Shown: piece after piece, positions 17,099-59,016 of the stretch
Layout: each line of letters starts with the position of its first letter
Position numbering within the stretch: position 1 is the first letter of the stretch
Assembly: GCA_020186115.1 (NCBI GenBank)
Contig: WSYJ01000182.1
Span: 248,001 to 312,000 of the forward strand
Reading direction: 5' to 3'
Source: Histomonas meleagridis
Lineage: Eukaryota; Parabasalia; Tritrichomonadida; Dientamoebidae
DNA: 64,000 nt
The notes under the pieces: model-generated
Database searches by the model: none
Told to the model about the DNA's origin: nothing
Seen by the model: the letters and a program-made list of their open reading frames with translations, nothing else
Translations under genes and position numbers: made by a program

Positions 17099-18910
17099 TC
17101 ATGCAATTTCAAGATGAGAGAACTCAAATGCGTCATCTCCGAGTATCTCACGCGTATACTCTGGATTCTCCTCTTCGTTAACTGTGGAACAATATATGTA
17201 CACGCCGAATGCAATGCCGAGTGAAACAAACACGATAGCAATGAACGCAAACACACCCGAGTGGTCGTGGCGCGCGGCAGAGGAAGAAGCTTCGGAACGT
17301 GGACTTTCGCTTGGTTCTGATGAGCTTTGACTTGTGAGCTCTGACTGAGCGCTTTGACTTTCTGACTGAGGACTTTCGTTTGTTGACTCTGATACTGAAC
17401 TTTGGTGTGTTGATTCTGACTGAGGACTTTCGTTTGTTGATTCAGCAATTGAACTTTGGTGTGTTGATTCTGACTGAGGACTTTCGTTTGTTGACTCTGA
17501 TACTGAACTTTGGTGTATTGATTCTGACTGAGGACTTTCATTTGTCGTTTCTGCAACTGAACTTTGGTGTGTTGATTCTGACTGAGAACTTTCGTTTGTT
17601 GACTCTGATACTGAACTTTGGTGTGTTGATTCTGATTGAGGACTTTCGTTTGTTGACTCTGATACTGAACTTTGGTGTGTTGATTCTGATTGAGGACTTT
17701 CGTTTGTTGATTCAGCAATTGAACTTTGGTGTGTTGATTCTGACTGAGGACTTTCGTTTGTTGACTCTGATACTGAACTTTGGTGTATTGATTCTGACTG
17801 AGGACTTTCATTTGTCGTTTCTGCAACTGAACTTTGGTGTGTTGATTCTGATTGAGGACTTTCGTTTGTTGACTCTGATACTGAACTTTGGTGTATTGAT
17901 TCTGACTGAGGACTTTCATTTGTCGTTTCTGCAACTGAACTTTGGTGTGTTGATTCTGACTGAGGACTTTCGTTTGTTGACTCTGATACTGAACTTTGGT
18001 GTATTGATTCTGACTGAGGACTTTCATTTGTCGTTTCTGCAACTGAACTTTGGTGTGTTGATTCTGACTGAGGACTTTCGTTTGTTGATTCAGCAATTGA
18101 ACTTTGGTGTGTTGATTCTGATTGAGGACTTTCGTTTGTTGACTCTGATACTGAACTTTGGTGTATTGATTCTGACTGAGGACTTTCATTTGTCGTTTCT
18201 GCAACTGAACTTTGGTGTGTTGATTCTGACTGAGGACTTTCGTTTGTTGATTCAGCAATTGAACTTTGGTGTGTTGATTCTGACTGAGGACTTTGGTGTG
18301 TTGATTCAGCAATTGAACTTTGGTGTGTTGATTCTGACTGAGGACTTTGGTGTGTTGATTCTGATTGAGGACTTTCGTTTGTTGACTCTGATACTGAACT
18401 TTGGTGTATTGATTCTGACTGAGGACTTTCATTTGTCGTTTCTGCAACTGAACTTTGATGTGTTGGTTCTGGCTGAGGACTTTCATTTGTTGATTCAGCA
18501 ATTGAACTTTGGTGTGTTGATTCTGATTGAGTGTTTTGGATTTCTGATTCTGATTGAGGACTTTCGTTTGTTGATTCAGCAACTGAACTTTGGTGTGTTG
18601 ATTCTGACTGAGGGCTTTCATTTGTTGACTCTGAAACTGAAATTTGACTTGTTGATTTTGATTGTGAACTATGGTTATTTGATTGAGAATTTTGATTTGT
18701 TGGTTTAGACATACTTTTATCAACCATTCTCATTTGTGTGGTAATTAATTTAGCGGTAGTATCAATAAATACTGTTGAGTGAAATTTATCATTTATTGTA
18801 AATTTTTGAGAGGGGACATCATCCACGTTATGATCAAAAAAATGTTTTTGTTTTTTGGTGAATATATTTTGCTTTTGGTTCTGTGTTAATATAAAGAAGA
18901 AGAAAAACAT
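17099..18910 (-). CDS. Ser/Thr/Gln/Glu-repeat type I surface protein
   Basis: 603 aa. After a short hydrophobic start (MFFFFFILTQ) and a ~85-residue lead-in comes a long tandem array of an 18-residue unit (S-T-N-E-S-P-Q-S-E-S-T-H-Q-S-S-V-S/A-E), encoded by a 54-bp DNA repeat. It is followed by a Ser-rich stem (SEPSESPRSEASSSAARHDH), one strong transmembrane segment (about residues 555-575: GVFAFIAIVFVSLGIAFGVY) and an acidic cytoplasmic tail ending EFSHLEIA. The composition suggests an O-glycosylated mucin-like stalk at the cell surface. This frame is preferred over two other long open frames across the same DNA (one on each strand) because only it gives a TM segment and tail, and because the repeat length (54, divisible by 3) opens several frames by itself. 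Stop TGA. Confidence 0.7.
   Translation of the reverse strand: MFFFFFILTQNQKQNIFTKKQKHFFDHNVDDVPSQKFTINDKFHSTVFIDTTAKLITTQMRMVDKSMSKPTNQNSQSNNHSSQSKSTSQISVSESTNESPQSESTHQSSVAESTNESPQSESEIQNTQSESTHQSSIAESTNESPQPEPTHQSSVAETTNESPQSESIHQSSVSESTNESPQSESTHQSPQSESTHQSSIAESTHQSPQSESTHQSSIAESTNESPQSESTHQSSVAETTNESPQSESIHQSSVSESTNESPQSESTHQSSIAESTNESPQSESTHQSSVAETTNESPQSESIHQSSVSESTNESPQSESTHQSSVAETTNESPQSESIHQSSVSESTNESPQSESTHQSSVAETTNESPQSESIHQSSVSESTNESPQSESTHQSSIAESTNESPQSESTHQSSVSESTNESPQSESTHQSSVSESTNESSQSESTHQSSVAETTNESPQSESIHQSSVSESTNESPQSESTHQSSIAESTNESPQSESTHQSSVSESTNESPQSESQSAQSELTSQSSSEPSESPRSEASSSAARHDHSGVFAFIAIVFVSLGIAFGVYIYCSTVNEEENPEYTREILGDDAFEFSHLEIA
17340..18650 (-). repeat. 54-bp coding tandem repeat array
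   Basis: About two dozen copies of a 54-bp unit; variants differ at a few positions (V-S-E, V-A-E, I-A-E; S-T-N-E vs T-T-N-E) and several are grouped into higher-order blocks of 2-3 units. Some copies are shortened (near 18285-18360), showing unequal crossing-over in progress. Confidence 0.85.
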
Positions 18911-30680: not shown

Positions 30681-30802
30681 TTAAATCGCATACTCTGAAA
30701 AAAGGTATTTCATATAATAATATGAGCATTAATAACATTCATTCTTGTTTAATAAGCATTTTCACTATTTTATTACGTACTATTTCAGGTGCAAGCATAA
30801 GC

Positions 30803-30925
30803 GCTGTTTTAAATAATTTGAATAATTCCCACATATTATTTTAAAATATCAAATGTTTGATATAAATTTTGGTTAAAATAAATAAATATTTTTAGCGTTA
30901 ATATCAATTCCTTTATGTTCAAGAA
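30803..30925 (-). repeat. 123-bp identical block within array A (copy 1)
   Basis: Identical over 123 bp to 31654-31776, covering the end of one module, the whole spacer and the start of the next module. Flanking sequence differs. Indicates recent duplication or gene conversion in the array. Confidence 0.85.
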
Positions 30926-31653
30926 GTGATTCAATTATTTCTGTATGACCATTTTTAGATGCTTTCATAAATGCTGTTTCAAATATTTTATATCAATTCC
31001 GATTATAATGTTGGTACATGAAATTATTAAAACAAATTTCAAATTATTCATTTATATGTCTTTAGCATTAACATCAATTCCTTCTTGTTCAAGAAGCAGT
31101 TTAACTATTTCTGTATGATCATATTCAGATGCTTTCATAAGTGCTGTTTGGAATAGTTTAAATAATTTCCAAATATTATTTTGGATTTTTATTTTAATAA
31201 ATTAATTATTCCATTGAATAAAAAAACATTTTTCACATTGAGATCAATTCCTTTTTTCTCAAGAAGTAGGTTAACGCTTTCTATCTGATCATTTAAGATT
31301 GCAGAAATAAGTGCTGTATCGAATAATTTATGTGAATTCCAAAAATTATATTGAAATATCGAAACATTAAAATAAACATTAAATAAGCTAAAATCAATAT
31401 TTTGACAATTGACATCAATTCTTTCATGTTCCAGAAGTAAAACGATAATTTCTATGTAACCATTTTTAGATACATAAATTAGTGCTGTATCAAATTATTT
31501 AAGTGATTTCCAAATATCTTTTTGAAACATGGAATCACTAAAATGAATATTAAATAAAATATGTAAATATCTTTAGCATTAATATCAATTCCTTTTTGTT
31601 TTAGCAACATTTTAACTATTTTTGGGTAAATATTAAAAGATGCTATTATAAGA

Positions 31654-31776
31654 GCTGTTTTAAATAATTTGAATAATTCCCACATATTATTTTAAAATAT
31701 CAAATGTTTGATATAAATTTTGGTTAAAATAAATAAATATTTTTAGCGTTAATATCAATTCCTTTATGTTCAAGAA
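31654..31776 (-). repeat. 123-bp identical block within array A (copy 2)
   Basis: Second copy of the block at 30803-30925; offset 851 bp, five repeat periods. Confidence 0.85.
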
Positions 31777-32551
31777 ACAATTTAACTATTTTTTTATCAC
31801 TACTATAAGTTGCATACATTAATGCTGTTTTAAATAATTTTAATGGATTCCAAATATAATTTTAAAATTTCAAATTATTAAATTAATCACAATATAAATA
31901 ATATAAAAATCTTTAGTATCAACATTAATTCCTTTATAATCAAGAAGCAATTTTGTGGTTTCAAAACAACCACATTTAGCTGCTGCCATTAATGCAGTCA
32001 AAAATCACTCAAAAAAATTCCAATGTTTCTAAACAAATTTTGAAAAATTTAAATGGATTTTATATTTTTGAAAGAAAAGCTAGTGGAATTAACATTAATT
32101 CTTTTCTTCTCAAGAAGCATTTTAACAATTTCTTTATGCCCATTATAAGAAGCATTCATAAGTGCTGTCCAAAACAATGATAATAAACACCAAATTATAT
32201 ATATATAAGTTCCAAATAATAAAAAGGAATATTCAATAAATTATACGAATGTTTGTAGAATTGATATTAATACTTTTGTATTCAAGAAGTAATTTAACAA
32301 CTTCAATATGACCATTTTTTGCTGCTAATAAAAATGCTGAATATAATTGATTAAATATATTCCAAATATATATTTAAAATTGCAAATAATAAAAACAAAT
32401 TTTATTTTCAAAAATAAAATATTTTTTTCACTTATTTTAATGCCTTTCTGAGTAAGAAGTAATTTAATGATATCTAAATATCCTTCATTACATGAAATAA
32501 TAAAAGGCGTATCAAACCAATGTTATAAATTTTAACATATTTTTTAAAGCA

Positions 32552-33763
32552 TTAAATCATAGAAAAAAATTTTATTAAAGAAAAATATACATTTCTAATA
32601 TTAACATTAAATCTTTTTTGTTCAAGAAGTAACTTAACTATTTCAATATTACCTGATTTTATAGACGATATTAAAACATCATTTGGAATTTGATTTCCTT
32701 TAGAAACATACAAAAAAAGAAAAACATTTCCATTTTCTGCTGCTTCATTAATCAATTCATTTAATTTTAATCCTTTTCCTTCCAAAAAAGAAAGGATTTC
32801 ATAGTTATTATATAATATACATTTCCTTCCTAATTCAATTAACTCTTTATCCTTAATTTTTTTCTTTTCATAAAAATAATAAAAAATATCATTCCTATGA
32901 AATTCAATTGCTATTTCATACACATTCTCAAATTCTGATTGGTTTTGTTCGCACAAATGAATGATTTCAAGATTCCCACTTGCAATTGCATATTTACCTG
33001 AATGATAAACATTTGCACCATTCATAAGCAAATATTTAAAACATTTAACTGAAGAAAAAAATGCTGCATAATCAATTAATGAAACATTTTCATCATTAAT
33101 AAGTGAATATCTTTCATAAAGTGATGGCGTGATTATTTGATTAAAATCAAAATCATTTTGAGATGATATTTCTTGAAGTTTTTCTATATCATCATTTCGA
33201 ATAATTTGTGCAATTTCATTTGGGTTAACTCCTTCTTTAACTAATTTCTTATGAAGCTCCCAATCATTCATTGAAATTTCATCATAATTATCATAAAATT
33301 CATTTATAAATATTCCTGTAATATTATTAATAAAAAAAGTATAATAATTTTCAAAAACGCTAAATTCATCATTTGTTTTATACTGTACAAAATAAAAGGA
33401 TTTTATATTCCTTACAACATCAGGACTGATAAAATTTTGTTCAATTAATTTTGCTAAAATATAATATGATTCTTGGGAGTTTAAATAAACAAGAAAATTT
33501 GAAAAAATATCAATTATCTTATTAGAAAATTTGGTGGAAAATATGCGAATAAATTGAATATATACATCAATGTCTTTTCTTTGGGAAATAAAAGACGAAA
33601 ATACAATTTGGCTTAAGGTTAACATAAAAGAATTAGGAAAATTTGTGTCAATTAATTCTTTTGTTGACTCAAATAATTCAAATATATTTTCTACATTTAT
33701 TTTCCAAATTATGGATTGTATGTTTTTGAGATATTGGATATATTTTTTTTCCACTATTATCAA
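32552..33763 (-). CDS. Ankyrin protein N-terminal part with DUF3447-like domain (split-ankyrin gene A, first exon)
   Basis: 403 codons. The N-terminal ~190 residues are helical and specific to trichomonad ankyrin proteins. The EIAQIIRNDDIEKLQEISS segment (about 194-212) precedes a DUF3447-type block: VSLIDYAAFFSSVKCFKYLLMNGANV, GKYAIASGNLEIIHLCEQN, YEIAIEFHRNDIFYYFYEKK (about 233-306). Degenerate ankyrin repeats follow, ending LLLEQKRFNVNIRN. The last dozen codons (V-Y-F-S-L-I-K-F-F-S-M-I, stop) are the start of the first spacer, not conserved protein, so the true exon end is probably near 32588. The protein is 45-55 percent-like by eye to the gene B N-terminus. Product and partner unknown; ankyrin proteins are the largest expanded family in trichomonads. 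Confidence 0.75.
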   Translation of the reverse strand: MIIVEKKYIQYLKNIQSIIWKINVENIFELFESTKELIDTNFPNSFMLTLSQIVFSSFISQRKDIDVYIQFIRIFSTKFSNKIIDIFSNFLVYLNSQESYYILAKLIEQNFISPDVVRNIKSFYFVQYKTNDEFSVFENYYTFFINNITGIFINEFYDNYDEISMNDWELHKKLVKEGVNPNEIAQIIRNDDIEKLQEISSQNDFDFNQIITPSLYERYSLINDENVSLIDYAAFFSSVKCFKYLLMNGANVYHSGKYAIASGNLEIIHLCEQNQSEFENVYEIAIEFHRNDIFYYFYEKKKIKDKELIELGRKCILYNNYEILSFLEGKGLKLNELINEAAENGNVFLFLYVSKGNQIPNDVLISSIKSGNIEIVKLLLEQKRFNVNIRNVYFSLIKFFSMI

Positions 33764-40160: not shown

Positions 40161-41482
40161 AAAATAAATTCCTTCCTTTAATATTTATTATGTTTTGTAT
40201 ACCTTCAAGAGAAACATTTTCTGATGATACACTTACAATTACTAATTCTAATGAATTTGATGAAATATCGCAATACTCTACAGCTGTTATTATAGATGAA
40301 AATGTTGATACAATTCCATCAAGTACTTTTTCGGAATGGAGTTCTTTGCTTTCAGCTATCATTGGTGATTCTGTTACGACAATTGAATCTTATGCATTTT
40401 CATCTTGTTATAATTTAGAATCAATTGTTATTGGAAAAAGTGTTCAAATATTTGGAGATCGTTCATTTCAAAATAGTAATTTCTTGCAGAACATAACATT
40501 TCCTGATTCAGTAATTTCATTTGGTGAATGTGTTATTATACTATGTGAGAAAATTAAGTTTTTTAAGATATCTGAGAATAATCCATATTTTTGTAATTTG
40601 AATGATGATGGAGTTCTTTATGATAAAACTATTCAAACCATCTACTTTTATCCAGCATGTAAAGAAAGTATAACATATGAAATTCCATCAACAGTTACTG
40701 CTACTAGAGAATCTTCATTTTATTCTTCTGGTAATTTAGAAGAAATTATTAATTGTAAAAATATTATAGATTTTGGTAATTTTACATTTTGTCTTTGTAC
40801 TAATCTAAAAGCATTTACAATTTCCAATAAAATATCAATTATTTCATATGGATTATTTTCATATTGTATTTCTTTGTCTACTGTTTGCATTGGAGAAAAT
40901 GTAAAAATAATTAATGATTACGCATTTAATTGGTGCAATGAACTTAAATGTGTTTACTTTTATGGGGAAACAGAACCTACAATTAGTGATATTGCTTTTT
41001 ATATAGTTACAGATAAAATTGAAATTATGGTGTTAAAAACATATCTAAGTAACGCATTTAAAATATTTAGTATTACCTTTGGAACTGTATCAGGATGTTC
41101 TACAGCATATACGAATTCAAATACATTTTCTAAATCGAACATTTTTACAAAATCAAATACATTTCCTGAATCAAATTCTTTTACTAATTCTAATACATTC
41201 TCTAAATCAAATTCTTTTACTAATTCTAATACATTCTCTAAATCAAATACTTTTACAAAATCTAATACATTCTCTAAATCAAATACTTTTACAAAATCTA
41301 ATACATTCTCTAAATCAAATACTTTTACAAATTCTAATACATTTTCTAAATCAAATGCTTTGATTAATTCAAATACGTTTATGAAATCATTTCCATTTAC
41401 TTCATCCAATGCATTTACAAAATCGAATTCATTTGTATTAGAGAATTCATATGAATTTAGACAACATTTTCATATTCATTAA
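40157..41482 (+). CDS. BspA-like leucine-rich-repeat surface protein 1 (3' end broken)
   Basis: 441 codons. Signal peptide MKNKFLPLIFIMFCIPSRE, then TpLRR/BspA repeats of ~23 residues (IIGDSVTTIESYAFSSCYNLESIVIGKSV..., NITFPDSVISFGECV..., VCIGENVKIINDYAFNWCNELKCVYF) up to about residue 300. A low-complexity stalk of a 6-7 residue unit (S-N-T-F-S-K / S-N-T-F-T-K) follows at about 318-425. Such proteins bind host cells or matrix in trichomonads. The family needs a C-terminal TM segment; here the frame stops after R-Q-H-F-H-I-H. The missing TM (V-I-I-I-V-C-V-I-I-V-A-I-V-F-I-I) lies downstream at about 41670-41750 in another frame, so the gene is frameshifted after the stalk and may be a pseudogene or carry an assembly error. 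Confidence 0.8.
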   Translation: MKNKFLPLIFIMFCIPSRETFSDDTLTITNSNEFDEISQYSTAVIIDENVDTIPSSTFSEWSSLLSAIIGDSVTTIESYAFSSCYNLESIVIGKSVQIFGDRSFQNSNFLQNITFPDSVISFGECVIILCEKIKFFKISENNPYFCNLNDDGVLYDKTIQTIYFYPACKESITYEIPSTVTATRESSFYSSGNLEEIINCKNIIDFGNFTFCLCTNLKAFTISNKISIISYGLFSYCISLSTVCIGENVKIINDYAFNWCNELKCVYFYGETEPTISDIAFYIVTDKIEIMVLKTYLSNAFKIFSITFGTVSGCSTAYTNSNTFSKSNIFTKSNTFPESNSFTNSNTFSKSNSFTNSNTFSKSNTFTKSNTFSKSNTFTKSNTFSKSNTFTNSNTFSKSNALINSNTFMKSFPFTSSNAFTKSNSFVLENSYEFRQHFHIH

Positions 41483-41981: not shown

Positions 41982-43480
41982 TTATGTCTGATTTACAATT
42001 TTTTCTTTTTCTAGTATTAAATTAACAATATCTTCGTAACCAAATTTGCTTGCCCACATTAAAGCTGTACGAATAACTTTTATAATATTCCAAATTATAT
42101 TTTCAAACATCAGAAACATAAAAATAACATTAAATAATTTAAATATATTCCTCTTATATTTGTATCAATTCCTTTTTGTTCAAGAAGTAATTCTACCACT
42201 TGAGTGTTACCTATTGAACAAGCATATATTAAAGCTGTCCAAAAACAATTCAACAAATACCAAAAATTAAATTTAAGCAGTTAATCAACGAAAAGAACAT
42301 TAAGAATCATTTTAAAACATTAAATCTCATTAAAAAACATCAGTTGCATTAATATCAATACCTTTTTGACTTAAAAGTAATTTTATAATTGGAATATTTT
42401 CTTTTGTACATGCATACATTAAAGCTGTTTTAAATAATATAAAAATACACCAAATATAATTTTGAAACATAAAAAAATATAATGAAACATTAAATAAATA
42501 TAAATAAATATCTTTAACATTAACACTAACTTTTCGTTCAATTAAAAGTTGAACAATTTCAAGTTGATCATTTGAACATGCCCACATTAGTGCCATTGAA
42601 AATTTGTTGAAAAAATTCCAAATTTTGGTTATATACACCAAAAATCATTTGTAAATATTAATTTAATTAAATAAATATTTTTTGTACTGAGGTCTATTCC
42701 TTTCTTTTCGAGTAGTAATTTTATCATATCAGGATTTGAGTTATTACATGCATACATTAATGCTGTCCAAAGAAAATGAAATAAATATTAAATGTATTTT
42801 GTTAACATTAAATATTTTGAATAAACAAAAAATTATATTAAAAAATGTTTTTCAAATTAACATCTATACCTTTTTTAAGAACTAACATTTTTACAATTTC
42901 AATATGGTTATATCGACATGCAAGCATTATACTTGTCCAAAATAGTAAAAATAAACACCGAAAATTAATATTTAACATTATTTCAGTAAAATAAACTTTA
43001 ATTGAAATAAAAAAATGTTTTTTAAGTTAACATCAATTCCTTTTTGATCAAGAAGTAATCGAACAATATCATTTGCTCCTGAGATGCATGACAACATAAG
43101 CGGTGTTGTGAATTAATTAGTAAAACACCATTTATACATTTGAAATTTCTTATTTTAATGATAAACTTTATAATTAACAAAAAAATATTCTTCAAATTAA
43201 TATCAGTTTTCTTATGTTGAAGAAGTAATTTGATTGTCTCAATATTCCCTTTTGAAGAAGCAATAATAAGTGCTGTTTCATCAGATATATTTAAATTCCA
43301 AATATTGTATTGAAATTTCAAATATATAAAACAAAAATTTAATCAAACCAGAAAACATCTTTAGCATTGACATCTATTCCTTTTAATTCTAGCAATAATT
43401 TCACAATTTCAGTATCATTTTTTTCAGATGCCATCATAAGTGCAGTTCTAAAAAAACAATATAAAATCCATATATGATTA
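41982..43480 (-). repeat. Split-ankyrin array B: nine ankyrin modules with ~80-bp spacers
   Basis: Continues the gene whose first exon is 43482-44660. Modules (minus strand) begin near 43450, 43285, 43112, 42935, 42773, 42600, 42432, 42243 and 42067; spacing 162-189 bp. All nine are open (for example TALMMASEKNDTEIVKLLLE, TALIIASSKGNIETIKLLLQ, TALMYACNNSNPDMIKLLLE, TALIYACSIGNTQVVELLLE). The last ends K-E-K-I-V-N-Q-T and a TAA at 41982-41984, the probable end of the gene. Spacers begin with A/G-TTTATTT or TTTTTTA and end with W-N-L-F-like TTTGGAATT cores before the next module. One spacer (between the modules near 42600 and 42432) is open and in frame through 27 codons; the others carry stops. 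Confidence 0.8.
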
Positions 43481-43481
43481 A

Positions 43482-44660
43482 TTAACATGAAATTAAAGAA
43501 ATAAAATTTATATTCATTAAAAAAACATTTTTAACATTTATATCAATTCCTTCTTGTTCAAGAATATATTTAAAAAGTTCAATGTTTCCTGATTCAGCAG
43601 AAGAAACGAGAATATTATCAGGTAATTTATTTTCCTCAAGAAAACATAATGTAAGGAATATATTACCATTTCTTGCTGCTTCATTAATTAAGGAATCATT
43701 GATTTTCATTCCTTCTTTTTCCAGAAATGAAAAAAGTTCATAGTTATTATATTTAATACATTTTTTCCCAAGTTTTATCTTATCTTTGATTTCGATAATG
43801 TTATTTTCATACAAATAATGAAAGATATCATTCCGATGAAATTCAATTGCTATCTCATAAGCATCTTCAAATGATGAATGATTTTGTTCGCATAAATGAA
43901 TAATTTCAGAATTTCCACCTGCAATTGCATATTTACCTGCATTTGCTATATTGGAATTATTTAATAATAAATATTTAAAACATTTGATTGACCCAAAAAA
44001 TGCTGCATAATCAATTAATGAAACATTTTCTTTATTTACATATGTGCATTTTTCGTAATGTGATGGCTCAATTATTTGGTTAAAATTGAAATTTGTTTCT
44101 GTTGAAATTTCTTGAAGTTTTTCTATTTCATCATTTCGAATTGCTTTAGCGACAATAGACTGATTAACTCCTTCATGCGTTTGTTTTTTATTTAGTTCTG
44201 ATTCATCTTTTGAAGATTTTTGAGTGTTTTTACTTTTATTGGTTTGATCAGATAAATTTTGATGAGAAAAAGAATTATCATTTTTCTTTTCGATTTCATC
44301 TATCATATTCTGTTCTAGCATTTTTTCAAGCAGAAACTTTGATTCTTGTGATTGCAATCGGAGAAGATACCAATAAAATATATTTATAATTTTTTTCTTT
44401 TCTTTTTCTTTTTCATTAATTCCTATTAAATATAAAAAACATCTACTTTCATTATTTACAAAAGAAACAAAGGAAGAATAAACTAATTGGGATACAATAA
44501 GATTATATGAAAATGAAAAACGGACATCATATAAATTTAATGTTGATTGAATTGCTGCTCCGATATTTTCATCACTTAAAGAAAATATAATATTTTCAAG
44601 TTGCTCCATGAATTGATATGATGTTTTTTTATAGCATTCCCTATTTGATTTTTTCTGCAT
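43482..44660 (-). CDS. Ankyrin protein N-terminal part with DUF3447-like domain (split-ankyrin gene B, first exon)
   Basis: From M at 44660 about 392 codons; the frame is open further upstream to 44768 but the extra part looks non-coding and contains the promoter-like AACGTTTTCTTGACG and ATTCAAA sequences. N-terminal LENIIFSLSDENIGAAIQSTLNLYD recurs in gene C (IIIDLNQENLKLSIENTMKLYD). A charged linker (NKSKNTQKSSKDESELNKKQ) separates it from IVAKAIRNDEIEKLQEIS and the DUF3447-like block (VSLIDYAAFFGSIKCFKYLLLN..., GKYAIAGGNSEIIHLCEQN, YEIAIEFHRNDIFHYLYENN). It ends LEQEGIDINVKN, then 14 spacer codons before a stop; the real exon end is probably near 43527. Confidence 0.75.
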   Translation of the reverse strand: MQKKSNRECYKKTSYQFMEQLENIIFSLSDENIGAAIQSTLNLYDVRFSFSYNLIVSQLVYSSFVSFVNNESRCFLYLIGINEKEKEKKKIINIFYWYLLRLQSQESKFLLEKMLEQNMIDEIEKKNDNSFSHQNLSDQTNKSKNTQKSSKDESELNKKQTHEGVNQSIVAKAIRNDEIEKLQEISTETNFNFNQIIEPSHYEKCTYVNKENVSLIDYAAFFGSIKCFKYLLLNNSNIANAGKYAIAGGNSEIIHLCEQNHSSFEDAYEIAIEFHRNDIFHYLYENNIIEIKDKIKLGKKCIKYNNYELFSFLEKEGMKINDSLINEAARNGNIFLTLCFLEENKLPDNILVSSAESGNIELFKYILEQEGIDINVKNVFLMNINFISLISC

Positions 44661-44889
44661 ACTTTTATTTTTTGAATTCGTCAAGAAAACGTTAAATTCG
44701 GGGTGGCCAAACGATATGATAAATTTAGTATAAAGAAGATTTTTTAAATATTTGAATATATAGTGCATTATTTTGCATAATATTAAGTTTTCATGATTTT
44801 GTTTGATAAAATAATTAAAAAAAATTGAGATTCTGTTTCATTAAATCACACGGTATCGAGTATTCAAACAAAAAATAAGGTGCGATTGT

Positions 44890-55971: not shown

Positions 55972-55984
55972 TCATTTTTCATTA
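55972..55984 (+). promoter_or_regulatory. Consensus initiator TCATTTTTCATTA
   Basis: An exact match to the Trichomonas initiator consensus TCAYTWYTCATTA, overlapping the A of the ATG at 55984, with A+1 at 55974 giving a 10-nt leader. This is strong support that the gene below is transcribed as a real gene, not a relic. Confidence 0.75.
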
Positions 55985-56172
55985 TGCAAAGCAATCTTAA
56001 TCCGACACCAGCAACAAACGAGATTGAGAATGAAGCTGAATATGTTACAAATCAATCTATGCATTTGCAAATCCCTAACTCACTCATGCAAATAATTATT
56101 GATCTTAACCAAGAAAACCTCAAGTTATCGATTGAAAATACAATGAAATTATATGACACACAGAATCCTTAA
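55984..56172 (+). CDS. Split-ankyrin gene C, first exon
   Basis: 62 codons from an ATG with a perfect initiator. N-terminal 30 residues are Asn/Glu/Thr-rich; SLMQIIIDLNQENLKLSIENTMKLYD (about 33-58) is the same helix pair that opens gene B's conserved part (LENIIFSLSDENIGAAIQSTLNLYD). After D-T-Q-N-P the frame stops; ankyrin modules begin ~20 bp later. Compared with genes A and B the whole DUF3447-like region is absent, so gene C is a shortened or differently built member. Confidence 0.6.
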   Translation: MQSNLNPTPATNEIENEAEYVTNQSMHLQIPNSLMQIIIDLNQENLKLSIENTMKLYDTQNP

Positions 56173-56187
56173 ATCCTGATAATTAAA

Positions 56188-58524
56188 TCAACACTTATGA
56201 AATCATTGGAAAGTCGTCATAATGAAATCCTTAAGTTACTTCTTGAACAAGAAAATCTAACAAATAATTTTGATAAGATATATTTATAATGTTTAAAGTA
56301 TAATTTCAACATTTCGAATTTCTTTATTATATTTGAAATTTATTTATACGATTTCAAGAATCACTTATTAATGAATTGAAAAGATGTAATCAACAAATGC
56401 TCGATTTACTTGAGAAAAAAGGAATTAACATAAACTTACAAAATCATAAAATTTGATTATATAATTTAATGTTTATATAAATCATTTGAAACATCATTAA
56501 TGAAAGCATCTAAAAAAGGTTATTTGGAAACAGTAAAATTACTTCTTGCACAAGAAGGAATTGATATAAATCAAACAAATGTTTATAAGTTATATTTAGA
56601 GTTAATTTTAATGATATAAAATTTCAATGTTAAATTTGGAATTTGTTTCTATTATTTGAATCAGCACTTATTATGGCAATCAAAAAGAATGAAATAGAAA
56701 TTGCAAAATTATTACTTGAACAAGAAAGAATTAATGTTAATGGAGTAAGTGTTTATTTGTTATATGTAGAATTTGTTTTAATTACATAAAGTTTTTGAAT
56801 TATTTTTGGAATTTATTTTAGAAATATGATACAGCACTTATTTTAGCATTAAGAAATGGTTACGAAGAAATCGCTAAGTTAATTCTTCAGAATAAAAATG
56901 TTGATGTTAATGTGAGAGGTGATGTTTTTTAGGTATTTTTCGTGTTTCTAAAAAATGTTTGATGTTTATTATAAATGTTTTTCACACCATTACTTTTTGC
57001 TGCTCGTTATGGTTATACTGATGTAGTTAAGTTACTTCTTGAACATGGAGAACTTAATATTAATGTAACAAATGATATTTATATGTAATATTTTATGTTT
57101 GTTATAATGATTTAATATTTGTTTGAAAGATTTGGAGTTTTTTTGTTAGTTTTGATACAGCTCTTTCTGTGGCTATTAAATGTTGTAATAATGATATCGC
57201 GAAAATGTTACTTGAACGAAATGGAATTGATGTTAACAACAAAGATAAAATCGATTTTGTTGATTTCAAATATCAAAATAATATTTGGAATTCATTTCGT
57301 TGATTTTATACAGCTTTAATGTCTGCAGCGTATAATGGAAGTGTAGAAATTACTAAATTACTTTTAGAAAAAGAAAGAATTGATGTTAATGCTAAAAATA
57401 TTTATTTGTTTTACTTAATATTAGTTTTGTCAATATAATGTTATTAAAAAATATTTAAAATTTATTCATTTTATTTCAAACAGCATTAATTTATGCAGCA
57501 CAATTCGGCCGTACAGAAATAGTTAAATTATTACTTGAACACGAAGGAATTGATATTAACATTAAAAATGTTTATTTGTTATATTTAGAATTTGTTTTTA
57601 TCAAATGAAAATTCAAAATTTAATTTGGAAATTATTTAATGTATTTAAGACAGCACTTATTTTAGCATTGAAAAATGATAAACCGGATATAGTTAAGTTA
57701 CTTCTTGAACAAGATAATGTTGATATTAATATCAAAGATAATATCTATTTGAATAATATAGAAATTGTTTATAATATTTGGTGTTTCTTTATGTGATTTT
57801 TAACAATTTTAATGATTGTAGCATTAAATGGTCATACTGATCTTGTTAAATTACTTCTTGACCAAAATAATGTTGATATTAATGCAAGAGATAATATATA
57901 ACTTCATTATTTGAAGTTTAACTCAAATATTTGGTGTTCATTTATTATATATAAAACAGCATTAATGCATGCAGCTTCAAAGAGTCATATCGATATCATT
58001 AAATTAATACTTGAAAAAGAAGGAATCGAAATCAATACAAGTGATGTTCATTTATATGACTTTTCGAAGTTTTTCCGAATTATTTAAAACTGTTTTTACA
58101 TTATGTTTATTAAATGGACAAGCAGAAATCATTGACTTATTCATCAAACAAAAAGGTATTAATAGCTTAAGTGTAAATATTTATTTAAATGTTCTGAAGT
58201 TTTATTATAATACTTCGAAATACAGCATTTGTATTAGCGGTATTAAATTGTTATGTTGTTATAGTTAAAATACTTATTACACAAGAAGGAATTGATGTTA
58301 ATGTTAAAACTATTTATTCGATTGATTTAATATATCAAAATATCATTTGGAATTTATTATATTCATTTAAAACACCTTTAATGATTGTGTCTGAATTAGG
58401 TTACAGCGAAATCGCTAATTTACTTCTTGAACAAAATGGTATCGATATTAATGCAAGAGATACTAATGTTAATATATATGATTTACTGTTTCATATTAAT
58501 ATTTGGAATTTATTTTGTTAATTC
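56188..58524 (+). repeat. Split-ankyrin array C: ~15 ankyrin modules with ~70-90-bp spacers
   Basis: Modules start near 56188, 56360, 56497, 56669, 56835, 56984, 57152, 57311, 57481, 57650, 57803, 57956, 58088, 58220 and 58375; a further one opens the last exon. Each codes T-A-L-x-x-A-(x13)-K-L-L-L-E-Q-x-x-I-D-I-N-x-K-N/D without internal stop, for example TALIYAAQFGRTEIVKLLLE and TPLLFAARYGYTDVVKLLLE. Spacers then read (A/G)TTTATTTG... and end with ATTTGGAATTTATT...F-K before the next T-A-L. Stops occur in the spacers in all frames continuing from the modules. Ankyrin repeats normally hold ~33-34 residues; the 3-4 turn residues (as in K-D-N-N-E-K-T of the final, unsplit junction) are the ones missing here. 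Confidence 0.8.
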
Positions 58525-59016
58525 GATACTGCTTTATTAAAGGCTTCTCGTAATTGTCATAATGATATTGTGAAATTGTTACTCGAACAAAAGGAAATTG
58601 ATGTCAACATTAAAGATAACAATGAGAAAACAATTCTTAATGAAACTGGTTTAATGAACAAGAAAGAAATTATTGATTTGATCGCAAGAAGAAAACAAAA
58701 TAGTGAAATGATGATGAATTCCGGTAATCGCAGAGACATTTTCATACCTGGACATTGCACATTCGAGCAAACTGGTTACACAATGGTAAACCACAATAGA
58801 TATTATAGGTGCAGAACTTGCATGAATAACTCAGGAATTAATTTCTGTTTTTGCGAGGAATGCGCTAAGGTATGTCACAAGGGCCACGACGTAACGCAGT
58901 CAGGTAGTGGTCCGGCATTTTGTGACTGCGGCGCTGGGCATTTCCTTTTCCCTTGCATGTTAATGCATAGACATAACGAAGAGAAAGAGAAAAAGGATGA
59001 AACCGAAAAAGCGTAG
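58525..59016 (+). CDS. Split-ankyrin gene C, last exon: ankyrin repeats plus UBR-type zinc finger
   Basis: 164 codons in one frame from D-T-A-L-L-K-A-S-R-N. Here two ankyrin repeats are joined normally (INIKDNNEKTILNETGLMNKKEIIDLI), showing what an unsplit turn looks like. After a linker, residues about 80-145 form a UBR-box: C-T-F, Y-R-C-R-T-C, C-F-C-E-E-C-A-K-V-C-H-K-G-H-D-V and F-C-D-C-G-A-G, the full set of Cys/His zinc ligands, closest to the UBR4-type box (C-A-K-V-C-H-K-x-H-x). The Lys/Glu-rich tail is short. UBR boxes bind destabilising N-terminal residues in the N-degron pathway; no RING or HECT is present, so it could be an adaptor. Stop TAG. Confidence 0.8.
   Translation, partial: DTALLKASRNCHNDIVKLLLEQKEIDVNIKDNNEKTILNETGLMNKKEIIDLIARRKQNSEMMMNSGNRRDIFIPGHCTFEQTGYTMVNHNRYYRCRTCMNNSGINFCFCEECAKVCHKGHDVTQSGSGPAFCDCGAGHFLFPCMLMHRHNEEKEKKDETEKA

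Follow-up and report, generated by a model that had tools for sequence, protein, structure and literature searches.

Reading frames interrupted by short or unusual sequences have been described in several systems, and these provide the background for the element considered here, an insert of 17 nucleotides (nt) that splits ankyrin-repeat genes of Histomonas meleagridis. The DNA analyzed, hereafter the window, is a stretch of 64,000 nt from contig WSYJ01000182.1 (positions 248,001-312,000) of the 43.28-Mb genome. To our knowledge, no intron or recoding class combines 17-nt inserts at consecutive codon boundaries with one-codon exons and neither GU-AG ends nor a branch site. Animal ankyrin genes carrying one intron per repeat are likewise split module by module, but by canonical introns of ordinary length. 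The 15-nt introns of Stentor share the extreme shortness of the inserts; they are, however, GT-AG spliceosomal introns, and we know of no combs with one-codon exons in this class. Short frame-interrupting blocks that are skipped are found in phage T4 gene 60, which has matched codons and stem-loops, and in the byps of Magnusiomyces, which are mitochondrial and involve an unused A-site codon (passages of PMC5009743), whereas the Histomonas inserts are nuclear, nearly constant at 17 nt and begin with ordinary triplets. The non-conventional introns of Euglena also lack GT-AG and are presumably not spliceosomal, but they show terminal base pairing, with a minimum of 30-36 nt and averages above 500 nt (excerpts of PMC11170887), and the Histomonas inserts have direct RTTT/ATTT ends. 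The Type B introns of Trichomonas vaginalis and T. stableri (23-28 nt) resemble the inserts in being parabasalid, very short, near-uniform and T-rich inside; they differ in having recognizable 5′ and 3′ motifs and in their small numbers, no more than dozens in a genome (24 in T. vaginalis; sections of PMC12316389). The inserts have no such motifs, leave single-codon exons and include one word with at least 1801 copies.

Three arrays of split ankyrin modules, A, B and C, are present in the window at the places given in a preliminary description of this DNA (Table 1). That description took each repeat to be followed by one ~80-bp spacer or intron whose removal joins consecutive repeats, and found the modules open in all but one unit. 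The latter observation was confirmed, with only module A11 broken. The spacer, however, is not one unit and consists of two to five inserts, each about 17 nt long and set apart by single codons. A single ~80-bp intron per repeat is ruled out because the codons inside the spacer are under selection, and removal of the whole spacer would delete three to five of them. The period of ~170 bp applies to most of A and B, while C varies from 133 to 173 bp. Together the arrays contain 35 junctions with 129 inserts, 126 of them exactly 17 nt long (the others, in A and B, measure 18, 18 and 19 nt, and some 18-nt inserts may be single-base errors), and 139 codons without a stop. The absence of stops is partly circular for junctions of unusual length (43, 46, 60, 66, 77 and 83 nt in C; 81, 82 and 100 nt in A and B) because these were laid out by eye or with a motif score that excludes stops. 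One junction of B (42338-42239) holds five inserts. Read together, module and junction codons give the D-x-x-G-x-T turn of the ankyrin family, and the first exons of genes A and B match Pfam Ank_2 and DUF3447.

A module profile run over the window and loci L001-L033 (L004, which is array C itself, was excluded) yielded 356 distinct units of module plus spacer. Loci L005-L033 were taken from the best DNA matches to array C, of which 30 were cut out, L004 among them, and 40 of 1624 candidates had been scored; being best matches to C, some of them overlapping, they are no random sample. The module is exactly 90 nt in 349 of the 356 units, and the spacer measures 80 nt in 214, 63 nt in 78 and another length in 64. 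Counting overlapping loci twice, 412 of 449 modules are intact, 23 partial and 14 stop-bearing; without 69 duplicates the figures are 343, 23 and 14 of 380, and many of the 14 lie, by eye, at array ends. The consensus 80-nt spacer reads ATTTATTTGTTTTATTT, AAT, ATTTATTTTAATAATTT, TAT, ATTTCAAAATAATATTT, GGA, AATTATTTAAATTATTT, AAA, followed by ACA GCA (T-A), that is, four 17-nt inserts and four codons in the order D|17|x2|17|x3|17|G|17|x5|T-A-L, so that the single codons spell the ankyrin turn D-x2-x3-G4-x5-T. The 63-nt spacer is the same without its first insert.

For these two classes the comb was fixed beforehand, and the resulting test on 292 junctions, including those of the window with 80 or 63 nt, is not affected by circular layout. 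None of the 1168 comb codons is a stop, against ~57 expected from column composition (by column, 5.6+15.6+21.6 and 1.0+7.1+6.4), whereas 74 other triplet windows of the 80-nt class hold 1301 stops against 1331 expected. After thinning to units less than 85% alike, the comb still showed no stops against 14.7 (65 units) and 4.2 (23 units) expected, while off-comb triplets with a non-stop consensus were mildly depleted and far from zero (145 against 186.4 and 32 against 39.1). Among 80 thinned modules there were likewise no stops against 47 expected, with the other two frames at expectation. The zero count alone does not set the register of the comb, since shifts of +1 and +3 are likewise stop-free; the register follows from Gly4 (glycine in 175 of 214 and 64 of 78 junctions), from the variable codons and from the 17-nt differences between copies. 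Positions x2, x3 and x5 are highly variable (N, K, D, E, R, Y, W), and in the 349 modules amino-acid diversity is otherwise concentrated at codons 5, 8, 9, 11, 12 and 28. Variable positions of this kind form the binding faces of ankyrin proteins.

The 17-nt unit was also recovered by a profile alignment allowing any skip of 4-95 nt at one price, with phase ties assigned to phase 0. Of the 331 skips with good flanks, which come from related copies and are not independent events, 275 are multiples of 17, although only 5 of the 92 lengths allowed are. When the flank filter was dropped, the skips numbered 648 and again peaked at 68 (207) and 51 (74), with much noise. These comparisons establish, at the level of sequence, the comb layout and the near-constant length of the inserts. 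In an otherwise ordinary ankyrin gene, L040, identified by Pfam search, five of nine repeat steps measure 99-102 nt and the others 119, 119, 153 and 154 nt, uninterrupted 12-nt linkers standing beside linkers of 29, 63 and 64 nt. On the basis of these steps, the periods of 102, 119, 136, 153 and 170 nt can be written as 102 (34 codons) plus 17n. A TPLH-type ankyrin gene (L044, C74:694207) shows by eye apparent inserts of ~17-18 nt around a glycine codon near the repeat end, one of them very T-rich.

The inserts share the consensus R-TTT...ATTT. Among 53 dissimilar inserts, 95% begin with A or G and none with C; T prevails at positions 2-4 and 15-17, and A at position 14. Their first triplets are dominated by ATT (658 of 1090), AAT (261) and GTT (57), and they are preceded by 37 and followed by 43 different codons. 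The RTTT and ATTT ends are direct repeats and not inverted, which does not match the terminal pairing of euglenid introns. Alignment of 56 dissimilar 80-nt junctions gave no fold, a result without power since 200 of 200 shuffles gave none either, and 30 of the 56 folded singly had a mean z of 0.25. A possible hairpin between slots 3 and 4 pairs in 70% of cells, against 34-55% when slid, with no excess of double changes. Three further ways of reading the junctions were discarded: AT-AC introns using the near-invariant AC of the threonine codon do not fit the frame, and in place of this threonine Ser, Met or another residue is sometimes seen; -1 frameshifting on T-TTA-AAA, where the spacer ends, would need an AAA that only 40 of 214 spacers have; and translation of the spacer in one frame fits the consensus, which has two open frames, but not the individual copies, which have stops outside the comb.

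Array C and its paralogue L005 (71% over ~2.66 kb) allow descent to be followed. Of the 48 inserts of C, 43 align in L005 (39 gap-free) and five are absent; orthologous inserts are 69.8% identical, against 61.7% for other inserts of the same slot, a value reached in 0 of 5000 permutations. Many inserts thus predate the split of the two arrays, and sequence comparison demonstrates their inheritance by descent. The two arrays show 12 length differences: 17 (three times), 34, 20 (17+3), 3 (twice), 22, 24, 14, 1 and 1 nt, of which 22, 24 and 14 belong to the poorly aligned region in and around the first two junctions. No stop occurs in 520 aligned codons (18 were unaligned), against 29.7 expected if they evolved like the inserts, so stops are not as frequent in codons as in spacers, and the earlier view that this is no decaying pseudogene array is supported. 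For the 54 junction codons alone the figures are 0 and 4.1, while control triplets within inserts contain 36 stops against 28.9 expected. Over 466 module codons the proportion of synonymous differences (pS) is 0.361 and that of nonsynonymous ones (pN) 0.199, a pN/pS of 0.55, and the inserts diverge by 0.303; in units 25-40% diverged, pN/pS is 0.71. By these comparisons the codons, single ones included, are under selection and the inserts are not on the same scale.

We consider that these are working ankyrin genes from whose RNA the 17-nt inserts are removed by a non-canonical route, a reading to which we assign a probability of about 0.57. That the inserts are skipped, and so would be absent from the protein, is well supported by the codon pattern; their removal at the RNA level is probable with less certainty. 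The preliminary description left a choice between a non-canonical intron class and some other bypass, and this choice was right, because conservation is confined to the codons and the inserts lack canonical signals; the unit, however, is the 17-nt insert, with several per repeat. In the proposed mechanism, 17-nt intervening sequences would lie at consecutive codon boundaries in the β-turn between repeats, the turn residues x2, x3 and Gly4 would often be single-codon exons, and excision would read signals within the insert (5′ purine-TTT and 3′ ATTT) plus the fixed length of 17 nt rather than GU-AG. RNA removal is preferred over ribosomal skipping because of the 37 preceding codons, which make tRNA re-pairing unlikely, the lack of a landing-codon match and the position of the signals inside the insert. 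Several observations weigh against this reading. We know of no machinery for such excision, and removal would have to be very efficient in arrays of 20 or more modules. One stop is present among the 349 modules of the codon table, the orthologue is the best or tied match for only 18 of the 39 shared inserts, and five of the 12 length differences between C and L005 (22, 24, 14, 1 and 1) are not insert- or codon-sized. The 5′ ends of genes A and C appear damaged. The contrast between module selection and spacer divergence found between C and L005 does not hold in close units, where pN/pS is 1.89, 1.08, 1.03 and 0.91 over four bands of rising divergence; selection thus appears relaxed or diversifying at many sites, with purifying selection visible only on stops and in diverged pairs. 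Finally, 314 of the 331 skips are in phase 0, with ties favoring phase 0 by construction, which counts against RNA excision because excision needs no phase and a ribosomal mechanism might.

Phase and the position of inserts between whole codons would fit better with translational bypass, in which the inserts would stay in the mRNA and be passed over by ribosomes, 17 nt at a time. In Magnusiomyces mitochondria, 81 block inserts are bypassed, seemingly independently of mRNA context and in several byps without perfectly matched codons (parts of PMC5009743), so that missing codon matches or hairpins would be compatible with bypass here as well. We nevertheless regard it as rather unlikely: no hairpin was detected in the folds described above, a test partly without power, no rare A-site codon is seen among the first triplets, and in long arrays a ribosome would have to make more than 60 skips on each mRNA. 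It is less likely still that the arrays are unexpressed, as pseudogenes or a silent reservoir, with codons conserved by gene conversion from insert-free working paralogues. The close-pair pN/pS near 1, the 5′ damage in A and C, a decayed fragment at 35080-34830 and two identical junctions in A would agree with this, but conversion from insert-free genes would erase the inserts, the single codons between inserts are stop-free, the 520 aligned codons stayed so after the shared inserts were in place, and the 3′ ends of L040 and B are complete. Ultra-short introns of the ordinary spliceosomal kind, with relaxed signals, appear very unlikely, even though introns in relatives are uniformly short (23-28 nt) and one of 15 nt is cited for Stentor (sections of PMC12316389). 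A U2 carrying GTGTAGTA was found above the cut-off and a U6 match carrying ACAGAGA just below the family cut-off; a U1 search gave no match in the genome, nor in any of 14 controls, and is therefore uninformative. Of 1090 inserts, 64 start with GT, two end with AG, one does both and none contains the branch site CTAAC, which a canonical intron of the genome has; the boundaries of slot 4 cannot be shifted to GT-AG because of GGA before and the variable x5 after it. As had been noted, the inserts lack the canonical intron signals of trichomonads, which do occur elsewhere in the genome. The word ACTAACACACAG was found three times (controls, 2): in L002 it closes an evident intron GTATGT...ACTAACACACAG in a gene that by eye resembles the DHHC type, in L003 it stands before a kinase-like exon, and in L001 there is no evident gene. 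Removal at the DNA level, with another genome form lacking the inserts, is highly improbable; paralogues do differ by 17-nt steps in insert presence at several places, but the assembly itself contains the many copies described below, and we know of no nuclear dimorphism in trichomonads.

One insert word, a 20-mer, has at least 1801 exact copies in the assembly, from which a naive extrapolation gives ~15,667 inserts genome-wide. On short ENA contigs, several homologues of exon 1 end or run on where inserts would begin, and one (P0015) reads through a junction of the 63-nt type, suggesting that such structures are not confined to this assembly. A Tritrichomonas musculus relative (P0028) has uninterrupted repeats with such turns, and insert-free arrays would be ancestral. 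An exon-1 search returned four annotated Histomonas 'caskin' relatives of 421-532 amino acids, two of which end, by eye, shortly after the exon-1-like end; gene models of this family are probably truncated. No report of such 17-nt inserts was found in the literature searched (open-licence PMC papers). The published genome description of H. meleagridis (PMC8529796) gives 573 introns for 11,119 genes and does not use the word ankyrin in its main text.

Table 1. Split ankyrin arrays of the window and the parts of genes A, B and C (positions counted from the first letter of the window).
Feature	Position	Strand	Remarks
Array A	32590-30700	minus	split ankyrin, 11 modules, last (A11) frameshifted
Gene A, first exon	32591..33763	minus	open frame 32552-33763, no clear ATG
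Gene A, split array	30808..32590	minus	11 junctions, 44 inserts of 17 nt but one of 18 and one of 19; 44 codons between/after inserts, 0 stops
Gene A, last module A11	30700..30807	minus	frameshifted, with stop; end approximate
Array B	43526-41982	minus	split ankyrin, 9 modules, natural stop
Gene B, first exon	43527..44768	minus	N-terminal domain, DUF3447 and ankyrin matches; ends at AAT before first insert
Gene B, split array	42069..43526	minus	9 junctions, 37 inserts of 17 nt but one of 18; 37 codons between/after inserts, 0 stops
Gene B, last module	41982..42068	minus	natural stop TAA (41984-41982)
Array C	56188-58617	plus	split ankyrin, 16 modules, last running into UBR zinc finger
Initiator-like 13-mer TCATTTTTCATTA	55972..55984	plus	5′ of gene C, before ATG at 55984
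Open frame	55984..56172	plus	ATG to TAA 56170-56172, same frame as first C module
Gene C, split array	56188..58617	plus	16 modules, 15 junctions, 48 inserts of 17 nt; 58 junction codons, 0 stops
Gene C, junction with four inserts	56581..56660	plus	inserts 56581-56597, 56601-56617, 56621-56637, 56641-56657; codons AGA (R) 56598, AAA (K) 56618, GGA (G) 56638, GAA (E) 56658
Gene C, junction with four inserts	57074..57156	plus	inserts at 57077, 57097, 57117, 57137; exactly 17 nt fewer in L005
Gene C, junction with three inserts	57247..57309	plus	inserts at 57250, 57270, 57290; exactly 17 nt extra in L005
Gene C, 3′ end	58618..59016	plus	uninterrupted linker D-N-N-E-K-T, UBR-box zinc finger, stop

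Judged from its parts, gene B is the most complete of the three. The suggestion that gene C is live, for which the word at 55972, which we take to carry an initiator motif, and the UBR finger had been cited, is weakened by the in-frame TAA at 56170: because the open frame behind the word runs into this stop, the 5′ part of gene C looks truncated or damaged, with L005 serving as the comparison. In array A, the junctions 31738-31659 and 30887-30808 (minus) are identical, a sign of recent conversion or duplication. The stretch 35080-34830 (minus) appears to be a decayed, stop-bearing fragment of the same ankyrin family; after it come a piece similar to the insert comb and then unrelated sequence, so that such ankyrin genes also die here. 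Among 20 open reading frames searched against Pfam, Ras, Mo25, ribosomal L28e with Mak16 and thioredoxin gave near-whole-profile matches without interruption. A kinase frame covers only part of its profile and an actin-type gene (46021-44890, minus) has a one-base shift at ~45730, either an assembly error or a damaged copy; these frames therefore say little about inserts elsewhere. A 54-bp tandem repeat (24 copies) lies at 17360-18661 within a 603-codon open frame, and a 36-bp repeat (7.4 copies) at 41110-41376 near the 3′ end of a leucine-rich (BspA-type) frame.

The poultry parasite H. meleagridis has a large ankyrin family cut by 17-nt inserts, with runs of as many as five. Loss of the inserts from the RNA would mean a new splicing-like activity in a parabasalid; skipping by the ribosome would make this an exceptionally dense bypass in a nuclear genome. 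Tentatively, and at somewhat less than even odds, we propose a dedicated excision system for fixed 17-nt RNA inserts that would act at on the order of ten thousand sites, join single codons and possibly diversify binding. The codons flanked by the inserts are exactly the variable ones of the turn, so that the inserts may allow the exchange of single codons between repeats, and the variable codons suggest a repertoire of diversified binding proteins.
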